This document shows positions 18,361-52,133 of a DNA stretch of 64,000 bases, piece after piece. This DNA is from Membranipora membranacea (lineage: Eukaryota > Bryozoa > Gymnolaemata > Cheilostomatida > Membraniporidae): positions 22,379,681 to 22,443,680 of the forward strand of contig OU612071.1 in assembly GCA_914767715.1 (NCBI GenBank), given 5' to 3'. A program made the translations under genes and the position numbers. Below the pieces are notes generated by a model, which was given only the letters and a program-made list of their open reading frames with translations, had not been told where the DNA came from and ran no database searches. The number at the start of each line of letters is the position of its first letter. The stretch's first letter is position 1.

Positions 18361-19163
18361 CTTCACCAGATCTCGCTCGTCTTCGCTTGCTCTCACTTAC
18401 TCTCACTTACCTTCGCTTGCCTTCACTTACTTGCACTTACTCTCACTTGCCTTCGCTTGCCTTCACTTACTCTCACCTGGCTTCACTTACTCTCACTTGC
18501 CTTCACTTGCTCTCAGTTGCCTTGACTTGCTCTCACGTGCCTTCACTTGCTCTCACTTGCCTTCACCAGATCTCGCTCGTCTTCACTTGCCTTAACTTGC
18601 CATCACTTGCCTTCACTTGCCTTCACTTGCCTTCACTTGCCTTCACTTGCCTTCACTTGCCTTCACTTGCCTTCACTTGCCCTCACTTGCCTTCACTTGC
18701 CTTCACTTGCCTTCACTTGCCTTCACTTGCCTTCACTTGCCCTCACTTGCCCTCACTTGCCCTCACTTGCCTTCACTTGCCTTCACTTGCCTTCACTTGC
18801 CTTCACTTGCCTTCACTTGCCTTCACTTGCCTTCACTTACTCTCACTTGGCTTCACTTACTCTCACTAGGCTTCAGTTGCTCTCAGTTGCCTTCACTTGC
18901 TCTCACGTGCCTTCACTTGCTGTCACTTGCCTTCACCAGATCTCGCTCGTCTTCGCTTGCTCTCACTTACTCTCACTTACCTTCGCTTGCCTTCACTTAC
19001 TTGCACTTACTCTCACTTGCCTTCGCTTGCCTTCACTTACTCTCACCTGGCTTCACTTACTCTCACTTGCCTTCACTTGCTCTCAGTTGCCTTGACTTGC
19101 TCTCACGTGCCTTCACTTGCTCTCACTTGCCTTCACCAGATCTCGCTCGTCTTCACTTGCCTT
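18361..19163. repeat. 570-bp higher-order repeat inside the minisatellite
   Basis: Positions 18361-18593 recur without a difference that I can find at 18931-19163, starting CTTCACCAGATCTCGCTCG. Flanking variants upstream (18290-18360 and 18860-18930) also match with few changes. The shared unusual units show that a block of about 570 bp, not single units, was duplicated recently. Confidence 0.8.
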
Positions 19164-19186
19164 CACTTCACTTCAAGTGAAGGCAA
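19157..19186. repeat. inverted unit inside the minisatellite
   Basis: TTGCCTTCACTT (19157-19168) and its exact reverse complement AAGTGAAGGCAA (19175-19186) flank a 6-bp loop. It is the only unit in the core array with the opposite strand polarity, and it shifts the register of the units that follow. Confidence 0.85.
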
Positions 19187-20000
19187 CTTGCCATCACTTG
19201 CCTTCACTTGCCTTCACTTGCCTTCACTTGCCTTCACTTGCCCTCACTTGCCCTCACTTGCCTTCACTTGCCTTCACTTGCCTTCACTTGCCTTCACTTG
19301 CCTTCACTTGCCTTCACTTGCCTTCACTTGCCCTCACTTGCCCTCACTTGCCCTCACTTGCCCTCACTTGCCCTCACTTGCCCTCACTTGCCCTCACTTG
19401 CCTTCACTTGCCTTCACTTGCCTTCACTTGCCTTCACTTGCCTTCACTAGCCTTCACTTGCCTTCACTTGCCTTCACTTGCCTTCACTTGCCTTCACTTA
19501 CTCTCACTTACTCTCACTTGCCTTCACTTACTCTCACTTACTCTCACTTGGCTTCACTTACTCTCATCTGCTTCTACTTGATTCCACTTGCATCTACTTA
19601 CTTCTACTTACCTACACTTACTGCCGCTTGCTTCCACGTACTTCCGCTTATTGCTGCTTGTTTCAGCTTGCTTCCACTTGCTTCAACTTACTTCCGCTTA
19701 CTTCAACTTATTTCCATTTGCCTACATTTACCTCCACTTGCCTACACTTACTTCCCTTGCTTTGACTTACATCCGCTTGCATCCACTTGCTTCCGCTCGC
19801 ATCCACTTACTTCCGCTTGCTTTCACTTACATCCACTTAATTCCACTTACTTCCACTTCCTCCCACCTACTTCCGTTTACTTCCACTAGCATCTACTTCC
19901 TTCCACTTGCCTACAGTTATCCCCACAAACCAACACTTACCTCAACATGCTTCCACATGCTTAAACTGGCTCCAACACGCTCCTTCTTGCCTCCACTTGC

Positions 20001-20339
20001 AAGTGGGGGCAAGTGGGGGCCAAGTGGGGGCCAAGTGGGGGCCAAGTGGGGGCCAAGTGGGGGCCAAGTGGGGGCCAAGTGGGGGCCAAGTGGGGGCCAA
20101 GTGGGGGCCAAGTGGGGGCCAAGTGGGGGCCAAGTGGGGGCCAAGTGGGGGCCAAGTGGGGGCCAAGTGGGGGCCAAGTGGGGGCCAAGTGGGGGCCAAG
20201 TGGGGGCCAAGTGGGGGCCAAGTGGGGGCCAAGTGGGGGCCAAGTGGGGGCCAAGTGGGGGCCAAGTGGGGGCCAAGTGGGGGCCAAGTGGGGGCCAAGT
20301 GGGGGCCAAGTGGGGGCCAAGTGGGGGCCAAGTGGGGGC
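20001..20339. repeat. perfect 11-bp G-rich array, unit AAGTGGGGGCC
   Basis: Twenty-nine identical 11-bp units (20011-20329) are bounded on each side by a 10-bp unit lacking one C. The G5 run in every unit makes the plus strand a strong candidate for G-quadruplex formation, and the opposite strand could form an i-motif. CAAGTG is the reverse complement of the CACTTG core of the neighbouring array, so this is the same repeat family in opposite orientation with a changed spacer. The open frames across it (Gly/Ala/Lys/Trp/Pro/Ser/Gln/Val) are repeat artefacts. Confidence 0.95.
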
Positions 20340-20344
20340 AAGTT

Positions 20345-20657
20345 CTTCCCCCGCATCGAATCTGGGCCACGCTGCGAAGGGCCGGGGCCCTCCTTGCGCG
20401 TCCAGCTTCCCCCGCATCGAATCTGGGCCACGCTGCGAAGGGCCGGGGCCCTCCTTGCGCGTCCAGCTTCCCCCGCATCGAATCTGGGCCACGCTGCGAA
20501 GGGCCGGGGCCCTCCTTGCGCGTCCAGCTTCCCCCGCATTGAATCTGGGCCACGCTGCGAAGGGCCGGGGCCCTCCTTGCGCGTCCAGCTTCCCCCGCAT
20601 CGAATCTGGGCCACGCTGCGAAGGGCCGGGGCCCTCCTTGCGCGTCCAGCTTCCCCC
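20345..20657. repeat. five copies of a GC-rich 61-bp unit
   Basis: Copies start at 20345, 20406, 20467, 20528 and 20589, with a stub at 20650. Each begins CTTCCCCCGCATCGAATC and contains GGGCCGGGGCCC. The only difference I see is one C-to-T change in copy 4 (CGCATTG). GC content is about two thirds, far above the surroundings, and there are several CpGs per unit. All frames are open only because of the repeat. Confidence 0.95.
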
Positions 20658-23342
20658 TGGCCAACCATCGACCAGATATTCTTTGCATTTAAATGCGAAT
20701 TCATCAGTCACATTGGCTTCAAACAACTCTACTTCATGTATATCAGGGACCAAGTCCTCAAACATACTATCAATATAATACTCAACAGCTGCACTGTTTT
20801 TATAATGGGAAAAATCATTTTTTAAGACTCATCGTCATCTATTGATATTCGAGATTCAAAAAACATAAATTTTCAGAGAGTATGCTCTTTTGACTACAGT
20901 GATAGTCTGTTTTAATACAGATAACAATAATCTATGACACCCCTTTCTTGATATGTCTGCTTGCCTATAAATTGTTGTGTCGTATGTTGTGCACTTTGGA
21001 TTGTATATCACTAGAGTTAAAACCAAGGAGTGATAAGTAATCAGCTGTTATAATCCTTGTCAAAACTGACACCAGCTGTTGTCGTTACTATAGCACTGAT
21101 TAAGTCCATTGTGTGTGCAGTACGATTATTTGGACCCAACAGAACCCATGACACTGTCAAACATTAAAATGGGACGTTAATAACATTTTTAATTTAATGA
21201 AAAACACAAAAAGTAGGGAGCTGTAAAAATAGTATATTATTCAATAGGAATAACAAAGCATGAAATATCATAACTTCATAATTGAAGGAAAACTCCAGGT
21301 AAGTCAATGCGAGATAATATGATACTTTCATCCATCCCTTCCTGCCTTGTGCGTGATCCGTCGACTTCTTAGCTTATATAGGTTGAACAGATATAGTTTA
21401 AGAACGGTAACTTAACATGTGTGTACGCATATGACGGTAGAAGGTGTGTCTTAAATATGTTAGATGTAAATTTAGGGTTAATGGAGTTAGCCTTTTTACG
21501 CAAATACTTTTTAGTGAGCGGGTGGCAATGCAAGCCTTGAGTATTGTGCAAAGTGACAAAAGTGACTTAAAAGTGGTTTAAAATACACATACATCCATAC
21601 ACTATCTAAACAATATCTAAACCTGAAACAATGTAATAATGGGGTTGGGGACAAACTCCCTGATCTACAAAGAAGGGGCTCCCCGCGTATTTTACTGAAT
21701 ATTGAAGATTGAGTGTTTTAAAGTTGAAAAAAAGAATTAGTCAGATTAAATAAAAAATCAATAAAAGATTTTAGACTGAAATTCAGTCAAACAATTTGGA
21801 ATGAGCTATTCAGATAAGGTGTTTTGGACGTACAACTCCAGGCAATAACAAACTTAAACTCGTCAGCCCATCAAAACAAAACCAAAACTCAAGCACATGG
21901 GTCATTCTAAGCAGAAATGAGCTTAGATAACACCACGGTCCAGTTGTTTTGAAGAATTAAGTCTGAAGATGGAAGTTTTAAAATTGAAGATTGCGCTATT
22001 TTCTCTGAAGGAAATGAAGACAGCTTTGTGTGCAGGGAGCCCAAAAGAAGCAATACAATAAAGTGACACAAAGTGAAAATCTAAAGAGTTGTCTGCACTC
22101 TGCCCTATATATTATTTTTGTGAGAATATTTTGACCAATCAGATAGATCAGAACATATCTGAACTTTAACCTGGCACATGGATCAGTCAAGACAGGGAGT
22201 ACTCCTTGGTCAAGATATGACTCGTTGGTGCAGGTGTGACTGGTGGTTGGAAGAAAGGGCCTAACAATGTATTCCGACCATGTTGATGACGAATGTCTAG
22301 TGCATGTGAGTATTTGTACAACTATATAGAGTGTGGAATTTAAGTAGATGGTATCTATTTTTGTTGTTCAAGCAGGGAGAGTTCTCCCTGGTTCAAGGAG
22401 AAAAGATTTTTTTACTCCTTGACCTTGGTTTGTCTATTTTTTTCATCTTCTATCTATAAATTATTTGCACACAAAGAAGTAGGCCTAATACTTATGGGTT
22501 ATCTGTTGCAAATAACTATTTAACTGCTTTTTGTTGCTGCTTATAACAAATTGCTACTGGTGGTGTGGGTTCCAGGATAGGCCTGAGAGCTAACCCAGCC
22601 GGCAAGGCTTAGCCAGCAACCTTTTGAAGAGGTTGCCAATGGGCAGATTTTTTGTTGGTCAATATCCTCTGACATCACCTGTCTTTGATAGGTATGCCAG
22701 AGGGGGCCACATATCCCCATTTCCAAGCAACAGATATAAGTGGTTTTAGATGCTTCTGCTTTTATACTTTCATTACAAAATAAAGTACACCTATGCAGTA
22801 GTATGTCCGATCGGCCCCCAGGGCCGATGTCGGGAACTGGCTGGAAGATGTAGCAGACCATGTCTGGGCACCCCATAGAGCATGTCTTACAGGGTGTGTC
22901 CGGTCTAGTTGCTGGGTCAGCGGACATGTTGTGCTTGCAAGCCCCATGGCATGCTGGCCAGTCGCCCTTGGTCAGTCGGACATGTCGTGAACACTTTCTG
23001 GGAGACAGAAGCCGACATCCATCTCATTTCATGACTGTCCTTTGATTGCTGTGGCTTGGTCAATATGTCGAAAATATAACCACCATACTATAAGATAAAT
23101 GTTGAGGAGTACACTTTCAACCCAACTACTTTGTAAAATAGAAAAATGATTATCTTGGCTAGGTCAAGGTCATGATAATATTATGAATACTGCTGTAACT
23201 TGTGCGGTTATATTTGAAATAATTTTTGACTGTTACTGAGTAAGAGATGACTTTTTTGGCACAACTTGTAGTGAAAATAGTTGACATACAAACTCTCAAA
23301 TCAGGTAATTTGAATAGTTGACTGAGAAAAGCTTTCAATACT
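20658..23342. other. intergenic, nothing recognised
   Basis: No gene that I can support. Short stems occur, for example GCAACC...GGTTGC at 22619-22639. Confidence 0.45.
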
Positions 23343-23424
23343 AACCAAGGAGTAAGTAACAAAGAAATGTTAGCAAGAGGTTGCTGTTGGTGGTGTTAGT
23401 GTAACGTGTTACTCCTTGCTCTAA
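23343..23424. repeat. hairpin with CAAGGAGTAA arms
   Basis: AACCAAGGAGTAA (23343-23355) faces TTACTCCTTGCTCTAA (23409-23424). The same arm motif forms a tight stem at 37908-37930 and a partial one near 22190, so it marks a small dispersed inverted-repeat family. Confidence 0.5.
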
Positions 23425-23955
23425 CATGTACACACACTCGACTCAGACACTCCACCACGTCCACTGTGAGTGGTACATTACTGTGATATAATTTGTGCTT
23501 ATATGTCTGAGTAACACAATTCAGTAAGCTCCTGTCAGGCTGCTTATTGCTGCAGCACACATGCACAACACCGCCACTCACTGACTGACTTGAGTAGTGA
23601 GACATTACTTACATTTAACATTTGAATAAGCTAGTCAGCGATTAAATATATTGACTCGAGTGAGTAATAATGTTGTTGAGTTTCAGTAATAACAAGGAGT
23701 ATCGTTGCTGCCTGATAACTTCTAAGGGAGATGGTCCATAGGCCTATCCCTCTATATGCATCATGTGGTTTAACTTCACTGCCTTTGAGTCGGCCCAGGA
23801 GTAGTGTTGAGTTTACATGGTATGATAATGCTAAATACTACTATTTGATTCAACACTTACTAGGCAATTATAACCTTATAATTTCTAGCTGCCAGTAATC
23901 TCATCTGTTTTTAGATAAATTTTCATCAAACCTTGAGTATCATTTGCAAAATGCA

Positions 23956-24082
23956 TGATTGCAATCGCTTTCTTGAGAGTTATTGTTGTTGTGAGTGGAT
24001 GATGATACTCCATCAAGCCTGTGATGGAGTCAAAACATCAGAGCAAAACTCACAACAACAAAAAATGAAGCAATTGCAATCA
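23956..24082. repeat. 127-bp hairpin element
   Basis: Outer arms TGATTGCAAT and ATTGCAATCA, middle arms TTGTTGTTGTGAGT and ACTCACAACAACAA, and an inner stem ACTCCATCA/TGATGGAGT pair in register. A related hairpin lies in inverted orientation at 24426-24501. Confidence 0.75.
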
Positions 24083-24118
24083 CAAAACTCCCTTGAGCAA
24101 CTGTTATAACACCTTTCT

Positions 24119-24864
24119 TTTTTATAGGATATTTTGAAGTTCACCATTCAAAGGGTATCACACTAGAGGTGACTAAGTCATAGTCGAGCATTACTAAATC
24201 AAGGTTCACAGTCAAGACACACAGACCAGATACACAGTCCAGACAGTACAGACACACAGTCCAGACAGTACAGACACACAGTCCAGATACACAGTCACAG
24301 TCGAGATTTACTCAGGGCCTACTCCGACCTTCAGGTGGGTGAGAGAAAACAAACTAAGTGCTGCACTATATTCATATGACAAAACAAGTCTGAATTTCAC
24401 TCACTATAAAAAGTTCTTCCTTTTTCATTGTTGTGAGTGATGATCTGAGTTTTGACTTCATCACAGGCTTGATGGAGTTTCATTACTCACTCACAACAAC
24501 ATTGCTTGCTTTGAAATACACCTTGAAATACACCTGTATAACATTATATAATATTTAGCAATTCACCAAGTTATAGGATGAAACTTAACTGCCGCAGTAT
24601 ATAAGCTAAACGACCAATCGAATAGAGAAAGATATCTCAGAAATGAACTTTTTATAGTGAGTGAAGTTCAAACTTGTTTTTTCATAGTGCAGCACTTTGT
24701 TTTATCTTCTCACCCAGCTGAGTATTGGAGGAGGCCCTGAGTAAATCTCGACTGTGACTGTTTGTCAGGACTGTGTGCCGGTACTGTGTGTCTCGACTGT
24801 GACTGGGTCACCTCTAGTGTGATACCTGTTGAATGGTGAATTTCAAAAGATCCTATAAAAAGCA
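24119..24864. repeat. 746-bp foldback element with long inverted arms
   Basis: The left arm 24119-24416 and right arm 24646-24864 are inverted copies. Matching blocks include TTTATAGGAT, TTCACCATTCAA, TATCACACTAGAGGTGAC, GTGCTGCACTAT and TCACTCACTATAAAAAGTTC. The left arm is longer because of a local tandem expansion of an ACAGTCCAGACAGTACAGAC-like motif (24225-24290). The 229-bp spacer contains a second hairpin. The right edge lies 18 bp before a splice acceptor (24881-24882) upstream of the RAG1-like gene. It has no protein. Confidence 0.8.
24426..24501. repeat. hairpin in the foldback spacer
   Basis: TTGTTGTGAGTGATGAT pairs with ATTACTCACTCACAACAA around a CTTCATCACAGGCTTGATG core. It is an inverted relative of 23956-24082. 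Confidence 0.7.
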
Positions 24865-24882
24865 AACTCTTTTTTTTTTCAG

Positions 24883-24987
24883 CGATGTGGTAGCCTTATC
24901 TCGGGTCAACCAGAAGCAAGGCATTTTGAATCCCACTCTCTCAAGCTCTTTGCCCAGAACATTTGCTTATTTGATCTTTCAATAAGC
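24883..24987 (+). other. candidate untranslated exon of the RAG1-like gene
   Basis: A long pyrimidine tract and CAG (ending 24882) precede, and AGC|GTAAGT follows at 24988. One frame is open through it, but the next exon has an in-frame stop before the start codon, so it would be 5' UTR. It is supported only by splice signals. Confidence 0.35.
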
Positions 24988-25531
24988 GTAAGTCATAGAT
25001 CGATCACTTAAAGCTGTATAATTCCACCTAGTGATTAGAGATCAAGCAGGTCTTGTTCATTTGTAACGAACGATCTTATCCCAAGTTTGTCAGTTTTGTG
25101 TGCAAATAAACACTCTGCTCAAATTATGTTTTGACGACATTGTCAACTAATTCTTAAACATGCAGACATATGTTTGTCAATTCACACTCTTTTGGTCCTT
25201 GTAGAACTGCCCAATGAATTACATATTACCCTTCCCATGTAGGTGTAGTTGAATCACATTTCATGACTGGCAATAGAGATTTTCAAAATGATGAGATAGA
25301 TTTGAAAAGAAAACATATCACCAGCAAGTTTTTGTTGAATATACTTGTTCCGTGTCGATAAACTCAGGATTCAGGATGCGTGTTGAGTGTATGTTCTTGG
25401 TTATCTCCTCTTTGAGATTAATATCAGGGAGAGGACAACCCGGTCTGCAAAGTGCCAAAGCCTGTAGTTATTATTAGTTTATGATTTGTATTGTCTATTT
25501 TTTTCAATTCCAAATTTTCATTATATTACAG

Positions 25532-25571
25532 ATATCCCTCTTCTCTTTGATATGTAGCTAAACCTGCATCT
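25532..25571 (+). other. 5' UTR part of the first coding exon
   Basis: The acceptor TTACAG ends at 25531. An in-frame TGA lies eight codons before the ATG at 25572, which argues that translation begins there and not upstream. Confidence 0.55.
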
Positions 25572-28500
25572 ATGGAGCCAGTTAGAGGTAAGTTGGTTTT
25601 ACATATCATCATACCTAGCCCTATGTCCCTATCATCAGATAGCAAATGAGTTGGAGTCTGTATTGCTGTACACACGGGTGGTGGGTGATATTGTAGTGTG
25701 AATCAGTGATCAATTTTAATGTCATGAGAATCATCATGCTGTACTGTACTGATCTCCATGTAGCTGACTGACTTTTTGAGTTTATCTTGTTTTCTAGTGT
25801 GATTTAACACCCTGAAGACTGTTTGTTATTCTCAAATATATTTTTTAGGCCCAGATGGATTCTTTGAGGGTCGCAAAATGTATGTCTCACAGGAAAGGGG
25901 ATTGTTTTTATCACAGGCTGCCTACTACGAGATTCTAGACATAAAACCAGATTGTAGGAGAGCTAAAGTCCCAGAAAACTTTCTTAAATCAAGAGGCTTG
26001 TCCATATCCGAGCACAAGGTAACAATGAAAATTTTGAAAAGTAGATTACTTTTTCCTAAGCAAGTCTCGTGTATCTGCACATGTACATGTTACTAAAATT
26101 CGAGCCGATAGGAGAACCCCTGGTGAATACAGCCAAAGTCCAGCTCTGATGCTCATCCTCAACCTATTTTCTTGCATTCGATCTTTATGGTTTGTTTTTC
26201 TGGCATTTCAGAAAGATCACAAGACCATTGGAGAAAGAAAGATTTCATTGTTATGCACAATAATGCAGTTGTTAAACAGACCACTTTCCTCTGGCGGTGA
26301 GGTTCTACCCAACCAGCTCAAGCTAGCAAAGTACTTGGAACGTCTTATATATAAAGAGTGTAAGTGTCCACTACAATTAATTTGTAGAATATACTATAGT
26401 GAGCTACGTAAGCACATTTTGCATAATATCACCAGCGTGAATCTCATTTATAAATTTTATGTGTTTGACCTTATTAGATGTTATGTGAAACAAAGTGAAA
26501 GAAAAAGGCGAAGTTTTTTTCTAATACGCTTGTTCTATTAAAATTAAATACTATAGTCAGCTGGCATCAAAAGCATATTATCTTTATTACCTTATGGAAA
26601 CTTGTTCGCCAATTTGATACCTTATTCTATCTTTTTCAGGTTTTCCTGATAATCGCCCTATAAGAAAACATAATGCTATTCTGAAGCCACTTGAGCCAGC
26701 CATCCAACTACGAAAACCACCAGTCAACACCAGAAAGAGGCTGATGACTCGTGTGAAAGCCGAACAGATCCACCGAAACAATCTCATCGGACAGGTTCAT
26801 GGAGGTATAAGAGAGTATAACAGCAGTGTGTTTTAAACCTAATTGTGGCCAAACCAAAGCTGAAAAGGCTGTGTGAGTACTGTTCTTTTTAAAGATTTTG
26901 TGTTGGTAACTCACATGTTGGATAGTTTTGGGGCTCTCTTGTGTGTCATTACAGGTATATGGGAATCTGATAACATGATATCTGGATGATGTTTATTTAC
27001 ATTAATTGTAGGATCTAAAGACAGTTTTCTCGCCTCAATGGCCTACCAGGCAAAAACTTGGAGGTTCGCCGTTTGTGAAGGAAGATTCAGTGGTGAGGAC
27101 CTTAATACCATCATCGAACGTCTACCATCGGACAAGATAGTAAAAAGACTCTCAAAAGCTGTCAACCGCAGACACACTATTAGTCCACGTGAGATTATTC
27201 ACATCACTGATAGTCAAAGTGTCAGCCGTACTATCAAGACACTCCGTCGTCACATCCCCAGTGCATTTCCAAGTGAGTCATTACATCTATTTTTAAGCAT
27301 AATGTTGATCCCTTCATTGTCATTATTTTCTAATTTCTAAAAAGATTTGAATTATTGATAACCTTGACTTCAAAATAAATTTAGACAGGCCACTGTATGG
27401 AATATTACCATTGGAACACCAAAGTGCTAAATTGTTTGTGATGTGACATTGGATTATGTAGTAGCAATGGTTTGTAGTCAACTGGTTTTTTGTTGCTAAC
27501 TCAATCAATTTTGATCAAATTTGAAGTTTGAACTCTGATTAGATTTTGCAGCTTGTTGTACTTTGTTGTTTACCTTTACCTAAAAAAAGGCTGTAAACAA
27601 TGTCAAGATAATCACAAGAAGCTGCTGATATTCATTACGTGCTACTTGACTGAAATAAATTTAGCTGAACTGTTATATGTTAGCTGCATTGCACAATCAT
27701 ATAGATACTTATTTAGACTCGATTCTTCACAGGTGATGTTCTTATAAATCTGGAGAAAAAGATGATGCGGTGTGATTTTGAGTTGCTATTCAAGCCCATG
27801 AAAACCACACACGGATGGAGGATCGAGCCACGATCGGTCAAAAACTACTTGCAGCTAATTATCCCTGCCAATACAAAAAACAACCGCTGGAAAGTAAGTC
27901 TGCCTTAGTGTGTAATATGGATGTTGAGTATCATTCATCAAATTATAAATTAATCTGTTCTGTTATTTGATGATTGCTGTGTAGTTTGAACCTTAAATGT
28001 TTATCAGTATGGTTATTTGTGTATTGTGCTGCTGTTAGCACTTTTCACTGCAGTTTTAGGGCAGAATTGTGGAGTTGTATTGTTGCCCTATCTGTTCATG
28101 AACAAAGAAAAGTGGATGCCATGTTTTTCCTTTTAATTAATATTTATTTCCATAAAGGCAGCATCATAAATGAATTTAATTATACTTCTGTAACAGGCAT
28201 TGCTCTGGTGGCAGCCTATTCAAATAGTGAATTGGTTGCTTTCACTGATAGTGCCTCCAAATTTAAGCTTGATGTGGTATTCTTGCTGACCAGTATGGGC
28301 TAATCAAAATTCAGCTTCCACTCTACACCAACTTTTCTATAATTTAGACACTGGTCAAGAAATGCTTATTGATTTGCAATCTTGTTTACTTCAGAACATA
28401 AACTGGATTCGAGGTGTTTCCAATTACTCTAATCAAACACATGTTGTCCATGTATTTTAAAACTGGAAATTTTCCTTATCTTGCTAATACCATCAGTATA

Positions 28501-31500
28501 CATTGAAACAATAGAGAGCTTAGTACACAGCGTTGTGGGGTGCCGTTGTTGGTAATTATGGTGTCTGAGAGTTTGTATTGGCTATTGTAAGTTGTCATTG
28601 ATTTGTTTATCTTTTGATTTGCTATTAGATATGGGGTGACGGGAGAGCCGTTGGTGGGCACAAAAGCACTGCCATCACAATCTCAGCTATAGACAACGGA
28701 TTAATTCTTAATCCACCGAAAGACCTCAAGATCCACTCCCCTCTCCTTGCCATGTCAGTGTGTGTATATTCAGGAGATGACCATCGCCTATCACTATCTG
28801 CCAACATCGGAGGTTGGCTTGATGAGTTTGTGGCCAATGACGATGCTGTGTGGTACTTAACGGGAGACACAATGTTTCTGAATGCTCTTGAGGGAGATTT
28901 TCATCCTAGAAAAATCAATGGTAAATTTAGTGAATGAGTTATTGATCAAGTTACTGACTGAAAGACATGACTAGCACATACTTGCTGTTTGAAAATGATG
29001 CAAAATAACTCTGTGTACATAATGATAATTTTAGCTGCATCTCAAGTATATATAAGTATGTATTACAGCATCAAATCTTTCCCCTAAATCAATTGGCTGC
29101 AAACTGCCAATCTGATAATTGTGTCAATGAATTTTCCATTGCTGGAGTTATCTTTGGCCAATATATTCCAGTATTATTGACATGAGCTCATCTATCGCAG
29201 TTGTAGCTTGTTGTTGCAGCTTGATAGCTGGTTATACATGCATTGGTGTATTCATAGGTAGGGTTAGCGGGCCATGGACCTACCACAATTTTGGAAAACC
29301 CCAAAAATTGACTAAGGTGATATTAGTACACATTAACTGTATTTATGTTTATCAATAGCAGCTGCTAAGGAAGGCCCCTTGTGTTATATTTAGGTATTAT
29401 GAAGGGATTAAACTGATGTAGCTGTTTTCCTTGGAAAATTTCTGCTTGTCATAAGGTTTAGAGTTCATCAATACATTTAAACTTTGAAGCATGTCAGCTA
29501 TGCTTCAATGCCATGGCCCCCTCAAAACATTTGCGCATATACGGGCCAGGCTCTAACAAGTAGCCTGTTTTGAATTGGTTGCGAAGGGAGATTGACCTCT
29601 AATCTTAGAAGGATATTGCCCTGAAAACTGCCTCAATTTTTAAATTTGTGTTTGGAGAGCCCCCATACCTTACTGCTATTTGAATGCCAAGCGATGGTAC
29701 TTGCTTTGTCTATCCTCAAGTCAAAATAATTGCAGAAAAGTATCAATTCCAGTAGGGATCAGAAATGATTTATGAAGCCCTAAAATTCAGTTGTTGCTGT
29801 AGCCAATTGCTTGTTAATCCCTTTCCAAATAGGGCTCAAACCCCTCAAGATTGCTTCAACTTTTCAAATTGTTTCTGGGAAGGCCCCCATATCCCCCCCT
29901 TGTGGGAAGGCATTCAGCCCCCCTCTCACACCCACCCCGCCTGGCCCTACAACTCTAAAACTCATGGATACAACCCTGTAATTATGATTGTTCTATTTAG
30001 GTAGTAACATATACAGTGAGGGCATGGAGGATAAAGATGCTACTGGTGCAGATGGGCTCAGGTCTTCATTGGGTCTGACCATCGACCGCTGCAATATGGA
30101 TAGTCTCTTGCCCTCTGTTCCCTTAGTCAGAAAAGTGATGTGTATAGATCACGCTGCATCTCGAGTGGCTGAAAAGCTCATCAACCTTACCCTAGAGACG
30201 ATTGTCGATGAGACTAGTGTCAAAGTGAAAGGGGATGTTATGTGGCGTGTAGACCTATTCTGTGATCGACTGAAGCAGCGAGATGTACTGACTGGTCACA
30301 TAGACATTGTCAATGGAAAGTTACAGGTACTAGTGCTTATCCTCTTTTGATGAAGTTGAAGTATTACAAAATTATTTGTTCTCATAAATTGTTGAAAAGA
30401 AACTTTATAAGCGCAAAACAATTATGGCTTTTCAGATTGAATTTACAGAAATCTGCTGCACCAGAGTTTCGTTCAAGGAATTTCCCCCTTATAATATATG
30501 ACATTTTCAGCTAATATTAACACGATGTCAATAATCCGTTTAATCCCATTTCATTCTTTTGACCATTCATTTATATCTACCTGATGTTGAATATGGTATA
30601 AACTGAACTGAACTTTAATCTGCGAGCATGTTAAAGGATTAAAATTATCCTGATGTAAATGCTATCTACTCACTAAACGCTGCGCTGAGCTGAGACCCGC
30701 AAAGTCACCTCTTCCTTTTTATTCCTAGTCGGAAATCACACTCAACAAGTCGAAAGCTCTCTCTGTGCTGGCACCGAAGGAGTATTTTGACTTCCCTGGT
30801 GAGACAAACGGGATTTATGACGACCTCTTGGTGGATGTCATCGTTCAAGCTCCAGTGATAAATGTACCAGCTATTGTCTTGAGAGAGCTAGATGGTTCTC
30901 GATGTCAGTCAACGTTAGTACGTTTCATCTGGAGAACTGCTGGGACCATGCTCCATATGCTTCGGTTAGTATTGTGTTGCACAACATCAGATATCCAACC
31001 AGAATTTTTAATTGGGATGATTTCTTCAAGTATTAAGATATAATATCATTTTAATTGGAAGTAAGCAGCACATAATTTGATAATAATAATATATTAACAT
31101 TACTTCTGCAATGTAGGATCTCTCACAAGTTGTATTGATATGAGTTTTGTCTATTTCTACAGTTCCACTGATGGCCTCATATATTATTACATTGATACTC
31201 TCTAGCAAGTATGTTTGTAAGTTTGTTGATGATGACTTCTTTTACTCTGCAGAGATAGCGAAAAGCCTCCAAGGCTGAAACCTGGTCGCGAGGAAGGCTC
31301 CAAAGATCCAGAGGATTATGACTTTGGATTGGAGTCATCTGACAAGAAAGAGTACCAACGGCTAGCAGACCTGCTGCATGCCTCAATGAAGTGTATGTGG
31401 TCATCAAAAGCAATGACCTCATATATCATGAAGCTGATTGACTATGTTCCGGCTTACCTAAACACCAGAGAAATTGCATCATTTATGCGGTAAGTAATTG

Positions 31501-33756
31501 ATTGGTTTTTTAAAGTATTCAAATGGTTTGCCCTTGCCATCGTAAGCAACTTGGGCGATACAAGCTACATCTGCCACTTTGTTTTCATCACTGAATTTCT
31601 CAAGGTGATATATATTGTTAAATGATACAGCCTTGTGCAAGAATTTTGAAATTAGTTTGGTTTGAAAGAGAAACTGTTCTTCTTATTTATTTGCAGACAA
31701 ATTAGTATGATATTATAATAATTAATAATACTTTTATCAAATCTACTCTGCTGTAGTCTTCTTATTTTTCTTGTGCTTTGTTCTTAGAATGTCCACAGAG
31801 CAGGGAGAACATCTCAACTATTCTCATCAGCGGCATTATATCAGCTGCACAAGCCATGGTGGGGGTAAAGCTCCAACATCCACTAACTATGAGCTACTGT
31901 TCTTTGATTTCCGAAAACTGTTGCCTTATCTGAAGGAAAAAACTAAACTACAGCATTGGATCGCTGAAGAAAAAGAGAAACAGCGAGAGAGGTGAAATAA
32001 TAGTCCTAATGCTCAGTATGGAAAGGGATTTTTTGGTGGCTTTCTAGTGGGAAACTCTTGAATTGGTTTTAGTGTGTTGTGATAATATCCCTTGAATTCG
32101 GTAGAACCATCATCACCATCAACTACTTGTGATTACAAAACAAAGCAAAACCATTTAGTAGCCCACTGACGCGATTACTATCAACTTGTTATGCCACAAG
32201 CACTTAGCAGATACGCTTCATATTTTTTGTATCTAATATGTGTAATGTAATTTTTTTCAGTGATGGTACTAGCACTACAGAAAGATTCAAGCATTTCAAG
32301 TCCTATGTCAGTTTTTTTGGGCAACTGCCCAAGAAGCTAGCTTCGATGAGAGATCAGTTCCTGGAGATGACAGATAATGTGCATCTTGATGCAAGCAAGG
32401 CTAGCTCTTGCCCAGATGGCATTCCTGTTCTGGTTATTGCCTCTGCTAGAGCTCCAGAGAGGAAGGTCACCCCACGGATCCTTATCACTGCTAAACGTCG
32501 AGGGTGGCCGGTAGTCAGTCACCAGTGGATGGATGCGTGTCTCAAAGCTAAGACAGTTATGCCTCACAATGAGTACCTGATTGACTACTCCCAGTTGAAG
32601 CTGAGAGTAACATCCATCAAAGCTGTAAGTCTATGATGTTATTGAATTACTTGATTATGTGGGATATGATCAAATAACATTCAATCACTCCCACTTATGA
32701 ACTCGCGACTCCCATCTCAGCTAGCCAACATAAGGTGCTAGCCAACATTAAGTGCCCAAACTAGCTTAACTAAATAAAATAGTATAAATTGTATTTCAGC
32801 TTAATGAGATCCAATCATGCAGATACCTATGCAATGGAATTTACAACCTAGTCAGCTAGAAGGAATATATTATATAGTTAGGTGGTATTTGACTGACATT
32901 AAGCTGCAGATCAGCACTGTCTTGTGATAAGCATATATATTATAATATATATTTAACAGCAGACTAATAGTAAGAACATTTTTCATTTCAGCCACCTCTC
33001 CTGGCACCTGGTACAAGGCGGAGCTATACAGTATTGAAAGCTGCAAAGCAAGCTCGTGAAAATGCTCTGAAGTCCCTATCTTCAGTGACAGTCATCAAGA
33101 GGAAACAAAACAAATATGTGTCACCATTCGTTTTGTTTTCAAAAAACGCGTATGGTAAAACATCTCAGGTGTTATCTTACACAGAGCGGAGGAGGGAGGT
33201 TGGACTTATGTGGAGAGAGATGAGAGAGAGTGAAAGAAATGATTATGTGCAGGCTGCCAAAAGAATCAGAGAGCGAGGTGCATTGAATATATTGAACTGC
33301 TGTCTGCCAAAATCCAAATGATGCCTATAAATGTTTTGGCTTTTAATCTAGTTATAGCAATACATTGTTGGCTCTACCCTTGTCAAACCTAGTTAGGAAG
33401 GCCAACGTAACTTTGAAATTATTTACATCAGTTACTGAGTAAAAGGCGATGGAAAAAGCAGTATTTCAGAATGCAACAGAGTGAAATTGGCTGATGTTAC
33501 AGAGTGGAGATATTTTAGGATTAACATTGATAACACTGTACTAAGACACAGAATTAGGATACTAATTACATGTTGTAACCGTTATTACCTTGTCATTTCA
33601 GGATTGAGAGTCAGTACGGATGGAGCAGTTGAACGTACTAGACGTGACAGGGAGATGGGAGAAGGCATGGTGCGAAAGAGAAGGAGAGACTGGAAACTGG
33701 ACAGTGAGGAGATGGGAGCGATTCCCAAATTTCAAAGGAGAAGTGGTATGTCATGA
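25572..33756 (+). CDS. RAG1/Transib-like DDE-core protein with BRCT and HMG-box domains
   Basis: Fourteen exons join in phase: 25572-25587, 25849-26018, 26212-26359, 26640-26804, 27012-27272, 27733-27893, 28629-28920, 30001-30326, 30729-30964, 31253-31489, 31788-31991, 32261-32624, 32992-33277, 33602-33745. All have GT...AG borders; the exon 9 donor is a weak GTTAGT. If exon 14 reads on to its TGA (33754-33756) the protein has 1006 residues. Residues 1-307 are helical and unassigned. Candidate catalytic residues are D311 (WGDGR), D387 (TGDTMF) and E678 (EQGEHLN), with a long helical insert between the last two, as in RAG1 (D600, D708, E962). The stretch before E678 (RLADLLHASM, IMKLIDYVP) also parallels the RAG1 region before its glutamate. 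BRCT is at about 745-850 and the HMG box at about 899-955. Seen: exons and motifs. Known: RAG1 residues and HMGB1 as a RAG cofactor. Inferred: homology and nuclear DNA role. Confidence 0.85.
28300..28625 (-). mobile_element. LINE reverse-transcriptase fragment in intron 6
   Basis: The minus strand reads KSMTTYNSQYKLSD then NNGTPQRCVLSSLLFQ (about 28600-28500), the RT block normally written GTPQGCVLSPLLF. Downstream it decays into stops. It lies antisense inside the last intron before the DDE core exon. Confidence 0.6.
28629..28920 (+). CDS. exon 7: first two acidic residues of the DDE-like core
   Basis: It starts IWGDGRAVGGHKS (D311), runs through a beta-rich stretch (AITISAIDNGLIL, LLAMSVCVYSGDD), then WYLTGDTMFLNALEG (D387). 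This strand-rich block followed by TGD resembles the RNase-H fold order of RAG1, in which GTGYD carries the second aspartate. Phase 0 in, phase 1 out. Confidence 0.6.
31788..31991 (+). CDS. exon 11: candidate catalytic glutamate
   Basis: It encodes MSTEQGEHLNYSHQRHY. The spacing E-x-x-E followed two residues later by N matches the RAG1 motif SEGNESGN, in which the second glutamate is catalytic. E678 is therefore the better candidate and E675 the alternative. The rest is a charged helical tail (KEKTKLQHWIAEEKEKQRE). Confidence 0.55.
32261..32624 (+). CDS. exon 12: BRCT domain
   Basis: The C-terminal BRCT half is clear: PRILITAKRRGWPVVSHQWM then DACL, with the conserved Trp at residue 828 and Cys three residues on, followed by P..EYLID. 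The N-terminal half (residues 745-800) has a FKSYVSFF strand and a VLVIAS strand but lacks an obvious Gly-Gly turn. BRCT domains bind phosphopeptides or DNA ends in repair proteins. A single domain occupying one exon suggests capture by exon shuffling. Confidence 0.7.
32992..33277 (+). CDS. exon 13: HMG box
   Basis: KYVSPFVLFSKNAYGK, a second helix TERRREVGLMWREM and a third helix with ERNDYVQAAKRIRER give the P..F.LF, W and Y positions of an HMG box in correct order and spacing. A basic linker (VIKRKQNK) precedes it and a very basic tail follows in exon 14 (MVRKRRRDWK), as is common beside HMG boxes. HMG boxes bend DNA. Confidence 0.75.
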
Positions 33757-34352
33757 TTACGGACCATTATAGACTTTGCATTACTTTCATATGCTATATG
33801 TACTGTTCATGTCAAGCAATTGGCAAGGAAAAAATTGCCCCCCATGTTTATTAACTATCAACGAATATAACTTTATGCTTCCCTTAAAGCACACACTTTA
33901 GAGTGTACAAATTGCAACAAGATTTGATTGAATTGAGCAGTGTATCACAAACGATGGACGAAAGGCTTTGTTCAGGGTTGAATTATTTTATTTACCACCA
34001 ATATTAATGCTATTAAATGGATATTCACTGGCTAAATTTGTCAAGTATACATAGGTGAGGATTACATGACACATGGGCCAGAAAATGATTCCAAAATAAA
34101 ATGTGTTATTGTGCAGAAAACACCACCATAACTATCATGGCTTAAAAGTTGGAGCTGGACAGCTGCTAATAATACAACTTTGGTGATAAAATGATTTTTT
34201 AGAGATGATACATAAAATATTTGATAATGGTGATCCAGCCCAGACAATATTTTAGGTTTTTGAAAGCTTTTGATACCAGAAATCATGAAATTTTACTTTC
34301 AAATTTTTGCTTATTTAAATTTAGTCATTCAGCAATACAACTCATCTGTTCC

Positions 34353-35020
34353 TCTCTAAGTAACCGTAGGCAATTTATCAAAATATATTCCTAGAAATCA
34401 ATTTTTAGGAATGTAACCCTTGAAGTGCCCCAGGGTTCTGTTTTAGGACCATTGTTATCACAAATGTGACATTGTGAAAGTTTCGGCTGCTTTCAATTAT
34501 ATTTTATTAGCCGACAACACAAGTTTACTCTGTGAAGATCTTGAAATTAATCCGTCAGAAATTGTTGAGATTGCGCAATGGCAATTGCCAATGAACTCAT
34601 AACACATTTTAGCAAAACCATGAAAGTAATTTTCAAAAATCCACAAAAATAATTAAGTATTAAGAAATTCGACAATTATAAACTTGGAATAGTGGACCAA
34701 GTTAAACAATTTTGTAACTATAATCAGTTTATTTTAATGATGTTTTGATATCTAACTAAATTTATGGGTGAGAGAATGATCCTAAAATATGTATTATACT
34801 TCTAACAACCCTCATCTCATCTATAGTGTGGAATTTTGGGGGCATGCGCCAGCATCTTTGATTTCAGGTGTTTTGATTAGTCAAAAGAAAGACTTCGAAT
34901 AATTACATCCAAGCCTCCTAATTCCCGCGTGACTCACAAATTTAAAGAATTGAACATAATGCCATATTCCATGCTTTTTGAGTTCAGGTTGCTTATTTTC
35001 TACAAAAATAACATCCTGGG
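34353..35020 (+). mobile_element. LINE reverse-transcriptase remnant (jockey/CR1-type)
   Basis: Plus-strand motifs in order: LSNRRQFIKIYS (34355), NVTLEVPQGSVLGPLLS (34410), ADNTSLLCED (34510, the ADDT catalytic block with D to N), YSVEFWGHA (34823), then SQKK (34877) and RIITSKPPNSRVTHKFKEL (34896). Frame changes and stops separate them. It sits in the gap between exon 14 of the RAG1-like gene and the next good exon and may have disrupted an exon there. Confidence 0.75.
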
Positions 35021-35294
35021 TGCCTAATGAAAACAGCTGCAATTTGATTGAAACATGTCACACCTTGACTACTAGAAAATCTAAATTATCATAAATTATG
35101 ATGACATGAGCTGATAAAAGAATTTCCTTTTGCTTAGAATTCTTCTAGCATCCTGGCCGAAGTCAGAAATGTTTCTGTCTGACAGCCCTTCTTTTTAAAG
35201 AAATTCTGTCATTCTCACTGTTTGCTAGCTCAAATAAATCTAATCATGATTAAATTATGTAATCTAAGGATATCATTACTTGCTCTAGTTTCAG

Positions 35295-37813
35295 GAGAAG
35301 AATGTGAGAACCGCAGTGCCAGCCAGGGAATTGGGGCGGAAGATCAAAAGAACAAAATTAGAGCAGCTGGTGAGGGAAGACAAGTTTTGGATGGAGCAGT
35401 ATGAATTTCAGGTCAAGATTAATGATCCCTTCCTTGCCACCATCACGACAATGTGTGATAAGGTAAGGCAAATATCCATATAGCCGCTTGTTTTTTTGCA
35501 AAGTGTGTTGTTATTGCGTTGACTCCCTTAATAACATGTACACAAAATATTGAATAATTTTTTTCCTGAATACAGTAGATAAAAATATGTTCGGAAGATG
35601 TCCTTTAATGTAATTTTTGCATCTGAGCGTATCCCCAATATGATCAGGACCTTTATTGACTATTGACATAGCTTACATCAACAAGTATCAAATCAGCTAG
35701 CTCATCCATTTGTTAAGTTGTTGATTGTACCATTGTCACTGTGTGATTTTGTATGTGAAAGTGGTTTCCAGAACTTGGCCAAGCACCTGGAAATTTCAAT
35801 CTTGATTTTGCTGTTACAAATTTCTGATCAATTCTTTTTCAGACTGTTTTCTACGGTGATGTTCAGCTCGTGCCTCCCTCACCAGGATCTCCTGTAAAGA
35901 AAACTCGATCAACTGCACCTACTACAACTTCTGCACTCTCTATCTCTCCAGCACCTGCTACAACTCTGTCTATTTCTACTGCACCTACTATGCCTACTAC
36001 TGCGCCCTCTACATATACAGAGCATTATATTTTGATTACTGGAAACATCTTACTCGTGATTGGGATGGTTGTTCGATGGCTTGGATTGAAAGCTCGGGTT
36101 TCACTCCTTGAAACAGATGGTGAGTGATTGTTACACTTACTATTTTTATGTAACTATAGATAAATGTCATTATGTGTACTTTGTGTTGCGAAAATTAAGC
36201 CTCAGCCATATAGATTGATGGAAGATATTATCATGCTTCCGAAAACCTCTCTTGTCACATTCTTTGTATGATGATGGCTGCGAAGTATTCTTGTATCTGC
36301 TTGTAAAGAGCCTTTGCAATGACATGAAGTTTTTACCTCCGCCCAAGATATTGCTACCGACCTCTGTTTTGGAAGATATTAATAGAGCATTAGCTGTGTA
36401 ACCGTTAAAAAATTTCTCATTTTAGCTGCGGGTGAAGCTCATGTATCTCTTATTCTGGAAGATGACCCATTGGCAATTGTTAAGGTTAGAGCCTCCGTTC
36501 TTGAGCTGCCGGATATGCAGATCTCCAATGATAACATTGTAAGTATTATTCATATCCCAGTAGGCCTATTCAGATTGCCTCATCAGCCTCTCGCTCGCCT
36601 GCTTAATTGAGAAAAAAACTGGATTGAGGATTTTTCAAAGAAGCCTGTCATCCGGTCGATGTTCACGTGCAAATTCTCTCCAAATCTGTTGAAATGATCT
36701 GTCATAGTCGCAATTCTACTGGATTGTATGCATGTACAGCTAGTACTGACGTTTGTGTCCAGATCAACAAACACCCCATCCTTAATGTGCCGTTTGAATT
36801 CTGCTTGAAAGACCTACATAGCACTGTCATCGGCATTGCTTTCACCCCAATAATCCTTGGTGTATTTTTAGATGAAAGATTTACAGCAGAAGAAGCGAAA
36901 TCTTATGCTAAAACCAACCAGTCACACATTCGTTTACCAGCTGTACCTGCACATTCAGGAGTTTTTTAAGAAGAAGGGCACGTCATTTTCTTTCACCCTG
37001 CCAATAACGTCGGTACCAGTAGGAATGGAGGACATGCTCAACTTTAAGGGCATGTTCCCACAGCTAACACACTTTGATAAAATGATGCCAAAACAATGGA
37101 AAATAAAACTGATCGATAATAAACTGGTTTTTTTAACTCAACTGAGCATAACACCTAATCTTCTTAAAATGAGCATCACTGTTAAAGTTTCTAAATCAAC
37201 TCTTGGTACTGCTTCTTCAATACCTGAAAATTACGATATCTTATGTATGGAAAAATTTATTGCCTTAACTAATTAACTATCGATTTCATTGTGATTGTTA
37301 AATTGTATTATTTCCTTCTTTTTTTCTTGACATTTTTCATACTGTACTAGCGCTTCTCATTATTCATAAGTTGTCATGCAAATCATGTCCTAGTCAACAT
37401 GTTGTCAGTTAATGTACTCCTCTTCTTCTTGCCTTGTATTAATATGTCAACTCAAATTATCATGGTTACCTGCATCATGGTGCTTTTAAAAACAAAAGAT
37501 ATATTTTCCTTGCCCATGTTCATGTCAAAATTTCTTTGAACAGATTTATGACACAAGAATATACTTAAAAGATGTGAAAAATTCTTACATGATTGATTGT
37601 ATTGCTAGCACTAAATGTAAAAGTTGTGAGACAAAGGAAACCGATATACATACTCTGCTTTTAAAAATAGTAAAGTTGCCTTGCATGCAGAAATATGGTC
37701 AGGAAATGTTTGATATAAATGCACATGTGTCGCAAACAACAGTCTTTATCCAGGCAGTAAGATATTTGGGGTGTCTTGAGCAGACCTTAGGGGCAGGGGC
37801 ATCTTGCAAGTAA
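35295..37813 (+). CDS. probable 3' exons (Ser/Thr/Pro stalk plus one hydrophobic segment)
   Basis: Four exons join in phase: 35295-35462, 35843-36119, 36426-36538 and 37544-37813 (stop). The first is a charged helix (REDKFWMEQYEFQVKIND). The second is rich in Ser, Thr, Pro and Ala, then has a ~21-residue hydrophobic run (YILITGNILLVIGMVV) that could span a membrane. The last has Cys-rich KCKSCETKET. No start codon is available: an in-frame TAG lies just upstream of 35295, so an upstream exon is required. The RAG1-like exon 14 would be the natural partner, but it ends in phase 1 and this exon begins in phase 0. Either a small exon was missed, or a base is wrong, or these are two genes. Function unknown. 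Confidence 0.5.
36624..37276 (+). pseudogene. coding-looking insert in the last intron, one frameshift
   Basis: Frame 1 (about 36636-36890) includes INKHPILNVPFEFCLKDL and GVFLDERFTAEEAKSY. A second frame continues from about 36885 with TFVYQLYLHIQEFFKKKG, FSFTLPITSVPVGMEDML and KGMFPQLTHFDK to a stop at 37276. Neither fits the phase of the neighbouring exons, so this is probably an inserted single-exon sequence broken once near 36870-36900. I do not recognise the protein. An alternative terminal exon with an unseen splice is possible. Confidence 0.45.
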
Positions 37814-38672: not shown

Positions 38673-41423
38673 TCAAAGATTTTGATAAGTATGCTGCGAG
38701 CTTGTTGGGGTCGAAACCTGAGGGGGAGGAGGAGGCATTGAATCGGTATAAAGTTGATGAGAGCTTGATGGGGTTCCAAAATTACCAGTATAATTTAAGT
38801 TTTGGTAAAATGAGTTCTGCTGTGCTGGTGCGTTCTGACGCCGGAGAATATCAGCATATTTACCCAGCATCTCCTGCTGAAATAGCAGCTGATTATCAGT
38901 ATTCAGCTTTTTAACTTTGATTAGCATGGATTTAAAGAAGCTGACGTTGTCATCAACTTCTTCGTTTGTGTCAGAATGCCTGATGGCCTTCAGTAACTCC
39001 ATCAGCACAGGATCTGCGGTCGAAGTCTGGAAAAAATATCAAGAGCACTGTTGTTATCCTATGGGGTGTACAGTACTCACAGGAGGAAAAGCTAGCAAAA
39101 TTTTTTCCAAGCTCATAATATGAGCTTGGACAACATTTTGCTACATTATGGGGCTACATAATATTATTATGTAGCCCCTTAACTAGCGTCACCAAACTCA
39201 AGTTTATATCATTACTTTTCAACAAAATGATAAATTTGCATCCAGGCCAGCAGTAGAAAGCCAACTGTTACACCAAGGAGTTTATATAATCTTGTTATAA
39301 TATCAAGATAATATAATACAATACAATATAATACAATAATATCCTCTTTTTGATAGGGTTGTTTAAAGTATCAGGAAACAATGCACCAGGATCTTACCGT
39401 AGTTTTCCGTTTCTTTCCTGTAACAATACACTCCGATGAAGTTTGGTCAATCGTATTACTGGCACCTGTAAAAAAACCGTCATTTTTAATAATCTGGCCT
39501 GGAATACACCAAAATTATGACTATACATGGGTGAAGCAACAGCATCAAATTATCAGCTGTTTCCACACAGCTCTATAGCAGCTCCTCGCCTATAGCCAGC
39601 AAGATTATAACAAAATCAACTCCTGCTGACTCCCGTTTTCGTCTCTTCAGTCAAAACAAGTAAAGAATCAGATCAATTTTTTGTGAGAGAAGAGTTTGAG
39701 TCATGAGTAAACTATTCATTCCAAGTCAAGTAAAATCCTTCTTTCAAGAGAACTGGTAGGCTTAGTGAGGTTGAGGTTTGACAGCTCTTGTACAAAAAGT
39801 CTATATCGAAATTCCCTTTTCAAGAAATAGCTGGGACAGCAGGTTTTTGTTTGGAAAATATAATACATGCCATTGCCAACACATCAGGAGGTAGTAACAA
39901 AGCCCATATATTCATTTGATTAACTATGAGCTGCCTGTTGGAGTTTTGTTAGCTATAGATTTCAAATGCTTCAACAACTCAAGCGCCATCAAAAATAGCT
40001 AACGATGATGGTAGGACATGCAGAAATTGTTTTGAGGGTTTTCTGTGTTATATTGTAAATCATGTGTAAATGAAGAAATAAAGTCTAACTGTCTAAGCAA
40101 CAAAGCCACCATATGCACAAGGCTTCTCCTAGCTAACGCCTTTACTTACCTATTTCTTTGATATTCTTGTTCTCGCCAAGTAGTTCCTTGTCCGACTCAT
40201 TGCCCGTGCCAATGTCTAAAATAAAATTCCAGAACAGGTGAGGTGGTGTTAGTCAATTGCATGAAAAATTCACATACATCTTACAATAATTTTAGTAAAG
40301 CCTGTATCTGTGAAACTTAAAATCAGCGATTAGACCAGGGTGAACATGACGTTGGTGTTCAACATTAGCAGGGGTGTCATAAAAAAAAACTAAAGGCTCA
40401 CAATTTAGAATCATAATCACTTCCATCTTACGCAGGAAATTCAGTGAAACTACATGTGTATATACCTGACAGGCACTACCTAAGCTTGAGCCTATAAATT
40501 GATCTGGGTGTTTTAACTTTGAGAGCCATGCACGGCAAGTAAGTTTATCAATGTTGGTACAATTGGAAATTGGTTAATACGTGACTCGTAGAGGAATAGA
40601 GCTGAGACACCAACAAACTTCCACACTGATATTTATTCCATATCATACAAACTCCTAAGATTTTGTGACCTGGCATATTGTAGGCCTACTAGTATGGTAC
40701 TAAGTGGAAATGAAACACGGAAAATTGGTACAACTTTACTCCAATTTATGTCCAAATCACAAGGTATATCAGGTATGCTTTGCTGTAAAATTTTCCTATC
40801 AGAAAACAATTCTCACCATTATTTGAACATCTCTTCTTGTCATGCCGTGGTGTTTCCTGGATAACTGGTGTTGTTGGGGATGCTGCTCCTGTTGATGATG
40901 TTGCTGTAGTTGCTGTAGCTTTTCTAGTAAGCGATTTCTTAATACATTGTTTTAAGATGGGGTATAAAAACATTGTTTCTTTGTGGAATGTGCTTATATC
41001 CTTCTCTGTTTGCACGTTTGCATGTTTAGATTTGAGATGTCTGAGGAGAGAGGATCGTCTGTTCTCATACACAGATTTGCAGACCTCTGAAGGTTTCCCC
41101 ACAGCCCTGGCCACCTCTTCCCAGGCTGCCTTCCTAGCTGCAAGTTTTCTAGTGTTGCCTGTGTCCAGATAGATGACTTCCCTCGTACTCACTTCACTCA
41201 TAATCGAGTCCCTGATGACATCAGGGATATTCTCAAATGGTGTACCTGGTCTTCGTGTAATAATCTCATTGTTAGTACTAGTAATATTGTCTAGTGCTAC
41301 CACTGGTCCTGGTGAAGTAATCTCAGTGATACTAATATTGGCTGATGCAACTGGACCTGGTGTAGTATATTCCCTGCTACCAGCAATATTGTCTGCCTCC
41401 ACTGTAGTATTTGCAGATGCCAT
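38673..41423 (-). CDS. MADF-BESS protein of a Harbinger-type element
   Basis: Four exons on minus join in phase: 41423-40817, 40215-40150, 39465-39398 and 39026-38673, giving 364 residues. The first exon holds a Thr/Pro-rich leader and a MADF (Myb/SANT-like DNA-binding) domain, residues about 65-165, with ARKAAWEEVARAVGKP, KSVYENRRSSLLRHLKS and a tail helix FLYPILKQCIKKS. The last exon starts with a BESS motif (NVSFFKSMLIKVKKLN then LFQQEML), which mediates protein contacts, and ends in a Gln/Ser/Pro-rich tail. PIF/Harbinger elements carry a Myb/SANT- or MADF-type partner that brings the nuclease to DNA and the nucleus. Here the nuclease is a broken remnant just downstream in opposite orientation, yet this gene has no stops or shifts. 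It could be domesticated or recently stranded. An untranslated 5' exon upstream is possible. Confidence 0.85.
39108..39178. repeat. two adjacent perfect-stem palindromes
   Basis: CCAAGCTCAT/ATGAGCTTGG with a 3-bp loop (39108-39130), and GGGGCTACATAAT/ATTATGTAGCCCC with a 3-bp loop (39150-39178). Both lie in the third intron of the MADF-BESS gene. Confidence 0.8.
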
Positions 41424-41704
41424 GAGTGTATCAATAAGTAGTAAGATGAGTTGGTGATATCAATGTTTTGACTTTGAATGCTGGAGATTGTCTGAACTGC
41501 CATGGTCCTGTAAACGTATTAAATACTGTATATGTATGTTACTGTAGCAACATAATGCTCTAGTCTCTAATCCTGAGTAAGCCCCGCCCATTGTAAATGG
41601 TAATGCAACTCCCCATACTACACTAAGCATGTTACGACACCACTTACGGCAGTGATTACAGCATGCTGTGTGGCATGTGCTCTTGCTGGCACAGCATGCT
41701 GTGG

Positions 41705-47384: not shown

Positions 47385-47389
47385 ACTAT
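47385..47389. other. target-site duplication, left (ACTAT)
   Basis: ACTAT directly before the left LTR matches ACTAT at 52354-52358 after the right LTR. Confidence 0.95.
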
Positions 47390-47609
47390 TGTAAGAACTG
47401 CTAATTGTGATGGCAATGAATAGTCTGTTTATTCTTCTGATAATAAATGATGATCTCTAACCAAGAAATCTAAACATGTTCAAGATGGTTGACAATAATA
47501 ATTGGTATCAAGTTGGGCTGCTGTAATAAGCCACAATAGGGAGTAGACAACTCCAAAGTAGTAATGTATAAGTTAGGGAGTAAACAACTCCAAAGTAGTA
47601 GTCACTACA
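47390..47609 (-). repeat. 3' LTR (220 bp)
   Basis: Plus-strand ends are TGTAAGAACTG and GTCACTACA. It contains two near-identical internal blocks around ACTCCAAAGTAGTA. Identical to the other LTR. Confidence 0.95.
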
Positions 47610-47620
47610 TCCGCTTTTAT
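47610..47620 (-). promoter_or_regulatory. polypurine tract
   Basis: ATAAAAGCGGA on the minus strand directly abuts the 3' LTR, where plus-strand DNA synthesis would be primed. Confidence 0.6.
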
Positions 47621-52132: not shown

Positions 52133-52133
52133 T

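Follow-up and report, generated by a model that had tools for sequence, protein, structure and literature searches.

An intron-rich gene combining a transposase-like order of motifs with a probable BRCT domain and an HMG box

The gene and its C-terminal domains

The window (the whole 64 kb stretch of DNA that was analysed) includes a gene of 14 exons encoding a protein of 1006 aa (Table 1). All 14 exons listed in the preliminary description of this DNA could be joined as proposed, the 13 introns (193–1080 bases each) all having GT-AG boundaries and the phase being continuous across every junction. The G+C content is 45 % in the exons of this gene and 34 % in its introns, and joining the exons gives a sequence with a three-base periodicity of 60.4, compared with 2.9 for the first 3021 intron bases and 9.0 for the last 2000. 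The joined exons contain a single, terminal stop codon in the reading frame and 56 and 70 stop codons in the other two frames. This signal is far above chance, and the 14-exon model is a real eukaryotic gene. Downstream of it, ATTAAA is found at 34012 and AATAAA at 34095.

Table 1. Exons of the gene and the motifs and domains assigned to them
Feature	Position	Strand	Basis or comment
Whole gene, 14 exons, 1006 aa protein	25572..33756	+	GT-AG boundaries of all introns, unbroken phase, coding periodicity
Exon 1, with the proposed start codon; five codons plus one base	25572..25587	+	Splice model
Exon 2	25849..26018	+	Splice model
Exon 3	26212..26359	+	Splice model
Exon 4	26640..26804	+	Splice model
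Exon 5	27012..27272	+	Splice model
Exon 6	27733..27893	+	Splice model
Exon 7, KIWGDGR (D311, 28638–28640) and YLTGD (D387, 28866–28868)	28629..28920	+	Proposed first and second catalytic Asp; putative catalytic role
Exon 8, C452-I-D-H455 (30141–30152)	30001..30326	+	Agrees with the C/DxxH of transposases that carry an insertion domain
Exon 9, within the proposed insertion domain	30729..30964	+	Putative assignment
Exon 10, residues 626–661 (31353–31460)	31253..31489	+	Weak RAG1 match just N-terminal of the RAG1 catalytic Glu
Exon 11, TEQGEHLN with E678 (31807–31809)	31788..31991	+	Proposed third catalytic residue; putative
Exon 12, with a probable BRCT domain at approximately aa 751–848 (32295–32588; limits set by eye)	32261..32624	+	Weak matches, all below cutoff
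Exon 13, HMG box, aa 896–955 (33097–33276)	32992..33277	+	HMG_box_2 on the exon ORF; SOX-9 chains in PDB
Exon 14, basic tail and stop codon (33754–33756)	33602..33756	+	Splice model

The splicing also bore out the earlier proposal that the region with the acidic motifs, the probable BRCT domain and the HMG box all belong to one phase-consistent gene. The BRCT and HMG exons were assigned to the same gene because the phase is continuous and because no ATG was seen by eye in exon 12 before the initial part of the BRCT domain.

The assignment of an HMG box to this protein is well supported by the sequence comparisons, in agreement with the preliminary description. The Pfam model HMG_box_2 (cutoff 22.4) gave 23.3 bits for the stop-to-stop ORF containing exon 13, though on the whole protein it scored 19.7, below the cutoff, and a second model, HMG_box, fell under its own cutoff on both. 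When the whole protein was compared with PDB up to E 10, the only matches were two SOX-9 chains (E 0.39 and 0.51).

The product of exon 12 is likely to be a divergent BRCT domain, and here the earlier claim stood in part. Exon 12 has 11 PDB matches, of which eight are to BRCT proteins (Brc1, 53BP1 and MDC1; E 1.1–1.7), the other three being two chains of a retron protein and LAMTOR3, and the C-terminal half of the domain aligns with Brc1 along the PRIL, VVSHQWMDACL and YLI stretches. However, every BRCT match in Pfam, whether of the whole protein or of the exon ORF, was below cutoff (E 0.02–0.19); on the exon 12 ORF, three BRCT models scored 12.3–15.4 bits compared with curated cutoffs of 21.3–27.3. 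Unlike the known BRCT repair proteins, the remainder of this protein matches no known repair protein. AlphaFold2 run on exon 12 alone gave a pLDDT of 33.9. For residues 1–300, the whole-protein search returned no Pfam match above cutoff. Matches to NT5C (Pfam, E 0.012), IL6Ra-bind (Pfam, E 0.053) and CLEC1B (PDB, E 0.29–0.30) were rejected as weak and without support elsewhere.

Putative catalytic core and comparison with known transposases

The proposed acidic triad consists of D311 (in WGDGR), D387 (in YLTGD) and E678 (in TEQGEHLN), and these residues were found at the positions previously given, with gaps of 76 and 291 residues. The order D-D-E is by itself weak evidence, because acidic residues are common. 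A further landmark, which the preliminary description did not include, is C452-I-D-H455. In transposases with a helical insertion, a C/DxxH motif following the second Asp is described as part of the active site in passages on Kat1 and Hermes (PMC4763223), and in excerpts on ISCth4 (PMC7780238) and on the P element and THAP9 (PMC8230255). At the level of residues, the order D311, D387, C452xxH455, E678 is that of DDE transposases of this type. As a [C/D]xxH site arises in the tested interval after D387 in 13 % of shuffles, C452xxH455 lends support to an insertion-domain transposase and is not proof of one. Hydrophobic stretches can be read in the sequence before D311, D387 and C452, and a low-confidence AlphaFold2 model of exon 7 alone (pLDDT 39.6) contains strands and no helix. 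No transposase family in Pfam matched at E 10, either with the whole protein or with ORFs from 10 of the 14 exons, in searches where the HMMER filters drop most weak matches.

The D-D, D-C and C-E intervals in this protein are 76, 65 and 226. For RAG1, in which D600, D708 and E962 are the catalytic residues and the PDB chain sequence contains D792-A-L-H795, the corresponding intervals are 108, 84 and 170. Excerpts of the relevant papers give 66, 21 and 86 for ISCth4 (PMC7780238) and 73, 36 and 192 for the P element (PMC8230255). The first two intervals found here lie within the values for these three transposases, and the C-E interval is longer than in any of them. The latter is bracketed only by that of Hermes, in which the CxxH site lies about 20 residues after the second Asp, compared with 65 residues from D387 to C452. 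The whole protein also matched neither a BED nor a hAT model in Pfam, though a CxxH in the active site and a helical insertion are features of the hAT transposases Hermes and Kat1 (PMC4763223, PMC7780238).

The preliminary description had taken the spacing of the acidic residues to be like that of RAG1. However, the first gap of 76 is nearer to that in the P element (73) and THAP9 (70) than to that in RAG1 (108), whereas the second gap of 291 is closer to the 254 of RAG1 than to the 228 of the P element or the 239 of THAP9, and the distance of 65 from the second Asp to the C/DxxH site compares with 36 in the P element and 84 in RAG1. The spacing was therefore set aside as evidence for RAG1, as it does not decide between RAG1 and the P element/THAP9. 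With the latter the protein also shares the [C/D](2)H after the second Asp and an insertion before the Glu, but no THAP domain was found in the whole-protein Pfam search.

Kinship of the core with RAG1, also proposed earlier, was not supported. Both a C(2)C and an H(3-4)H motif are reported in PMC12730594 for RAG1, Transib, EnSpm, Mirage, Chapaev, Plavaka, ESTA and Lanisha, and PMC7204232 describes protostome RAG1L as having four conserved residues that coordinate zinc and names H795 of RAG1 as an active-site residue. Though the protein resembles RAG1, RAG1L and Transib (CMCT) in having two Asp followed by a Glu with a long stretch between, none of its 1006 residues is a C with a second C 3–5 residues further on, and the C(2)C motif is thus absent between D387 and E678; H(3-4)H sites are found at 61 and 679 only, with none in residues 388–677. 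The RAG1 model of Pfam matched neither the whole protein nor ORFs covering 10 of its 14 exons, and the PDB searches yielded no chain of RAG1 or Transib. The BRCT and HMG tail is a further difference from RAG1 and Transib.

The protein was also aligned, using hhalign, with a profile built solely from 18 vertebrate RAG1 proteins (chosen from at least 120 listed of the 240 found). With the whole protein, residues 626–661 aligned with 921–955 of P0001, the numbering of which is that of mouse RAG1 plus 8, at 34 % identity (E 0.03, probability 1.7 %), and exons 10 and 11 produced the same match of 35–36 columns (E 0.0065, probability 5.8 %). In a run on residues 251–760, the distance from the end of the match to the Glu is 16 residues here (E678) and 14 in RAG1, and the register thus agrees within 2, though this is not independent support because E678 may have been chosen for its RAG1-like surroundings. 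None of 60 shuffles of residues 251–760 reached the score of the match. The score of exons 10 and 11 with the prebuilt profile, 25.42, was equalled or exceeded by 4 of 500 shuffles and by none of nine non-overlapping pieces of an unrelated Gypsy polyprotein; in another set it was reached by 3 of 400 shuffles, by 4 of 42 overlapping pieces of a Gypsy polyprotein and by none of 28 pieces from elsewhere in the protein itself. No significant match was placed around either Asp or at the IDALH of RAG1; by eye D792-A-L-H795 can be aligned with C452-I-D-H455 and exon 8 had been expected to correspond to the IDALH block, but hhalign placed no match there. The match at 626–661 hints at a distantly related helix preceding the Glu, and at no more than that.

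Two copies of CACWGTG, at 23462 and 35737, were considered as possible RAG-type ends and rejected, as two in approximately 15 kb is, by our own estimate, the chance level. No kelch match indicative of RAG2 was found among 10 other ORFs in the window. RAG1L and Transib homologues have been found across eukaryotes and bacteria in a study that does not mention sponges (PMC9435367), and excerpts of PMC7916673 report no sponge RAG1.

Searches for relatives of the protein covered several collections. No relative of the whole protein was found at E ≤ 0.001 among the 7993 candidates with the most words in common with it, nor of residues 300–740 at E ≤ 10 among 7160 candidates, from a collection that includes ncbi, nr, uniref and eukprot, using a search that needs shared five-residue words and a similar length and that distant relatives may escape. 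The 64 pattern stretches found in viral contigs (24, 26, 11 and 3) and the 20 found in genome contigs (10 and 10) included no relative, and these contig collections may leave out records of the genome from which the window derives. NCBIfam gave no match. Because no homologue was found in any search, no residue of the protein is known to be conserved. Among the literature matches listed, the titles and the openings of the abstracts mention no protein that pairs a transposase with a BRCT domain, an HMG box or both.

Possible origin and function

We favour, with a probability of approximately 0.5, the explanation that this is an intron-rich host gene of an animal-type genome, derived from a DDE transposase of the insertion-domain (C/DxxH) type to which a BRCT and an HMG module have been fused. 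Its RNase-H fold, the insertion domain, catalysis, the recruitment of repair proteins, domestication and the role of each part are inferred. The core would descend from a cut-and-paste transposase and would include an RNase-H-like DDE domain split by a helical insertion. If it is active, D311, D387 and E678 would coordinate the metal ions for DNA cleavage and H455 would be located at the scissile phosphate, while the HMG box would bend or recruit DNA and the BRCT domain may dock repair proteins at the break.

The gene appears to belong to the host and not to be a mobile copy, because it has 13 introns, no second copy is present in the 64 kb window and the flanking regions contain no inverted repeats above chance, with four exact 11-mers shared in inverted orientation between 23000–25571 and 33757–37500 compared with 4.0 expected from shuffles. 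The survey of inverted pairs covered the best 25 (the longest) of 95. Such repeats may be absent from a domesticated copy. The same three observations speak against an active DNA transposon with BRCT and HMG domains in its transposase, which we consider very unlikely, though the transposase-like order of motifs and the other mobile DNA in the window (a palindromic element and a Gypsy element whose LTRs are identical) would be in keeping with one. It is possible, though at odds well short of even, that the gene encodes no transposase at all but a chromatin or repair protein with BRCT and HMG domains, in which the first 740 residues adopt an unknown fold and the acidic motifs are due to chance. 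The BRCT domain and HMG box are indeed the only domains with consistent support, no transposase model was matched, and acids in the order D-D-E occur in almost any protein; however, D311, D387, C452xxH455 and E678 follow one another in the order expected of a transposase and the RAG1 match falls where it would be expected.

It is unlikely that the protein is a highly divergent RAG1/Transib (CMC-type) member that has lost its zinc ligands and gained the HMG and BRCT fusion. The best whole-protein match to vertebrate RAG1 does lie just before the catalytic Glu and was rarely equalled by shuffles, the second gap is the one nearer to RAG1, and an alignment by eye of TEQGEHLN with SEGNESGN pairs E with E and N with N. 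Set against this are the low hhalign probabilities, the match scores reached by overlapping Gypsy pieces, the lack of a significant match at either Asp or the IDALH, and the missing zinc motifs; in the hhalign alignment the zinc ligands H937 and H942 of mouse RAG1 face M and Y. RAG recombination borrows DNA bending and repair docking from other proteins, and a more specific proposal is that the gene encodes a domesticated, zinc-free relative of RAG1-type cores in which bending by the HMG box and repair docking by the BRCT domain are built in, forming a self-contained enzyme for programmed DNA cutting in an early-branching animal. We consider this quite improbable.

Should the core be of transposase origin, as we favour, such a fusion would give a domesticated transposase an unusual arrangement of domains, and it would provide a test of whether a single cutting enzyme can hold both DNA bending and repair recruitment. 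Should it not be, the protein would still be a large orphan, probably DNA-binding, with no relative in the collections searched.

Other features of the window

A palindromic foldback or MITE-like element lies just upstream of the gene, at 23984–24866, and its five longest arm pairs are 42–83 bases in length and 77–93 % complementary. The Gypsy-type retrotransposon is on the minus strand at 47388–52353 and includes an ORF (47789–52006) matching gag, protease, RT, RNase H and integrase. Its LTRs (47388–47609 and 52132–52353) are 222 bases each and identical, and hence this copy is probably young. Also on the minus strand, ORFs with a MADF domain (40746–41459) and a BESS motif (38673–39038), both scoring above cutoff, are perhaps parts of a single MADF-BESS gene (38673–41459) that is split by introns. 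A match to the Rfam tRNA model at 9464–9546 (31.7 bits, cutoff 29) was absent from the ARAGORN output.

Tandem repeats are found in two places. The region 17345–19910 includes about 2.2 kb of an array of the 10/20-base unit CACTTGCCTT, in which each of the three forward frames has long ORFs, and two adjoining arrays occupy 20000–20657, one of an 11-base unit present 31.5 times and the other of a 61-base unit present 5.1 times, each with 99 % matches. Segments within 1110–3417 recur in the same order within 3629–5999 at 77–85 % identity, representing an old local duplication.
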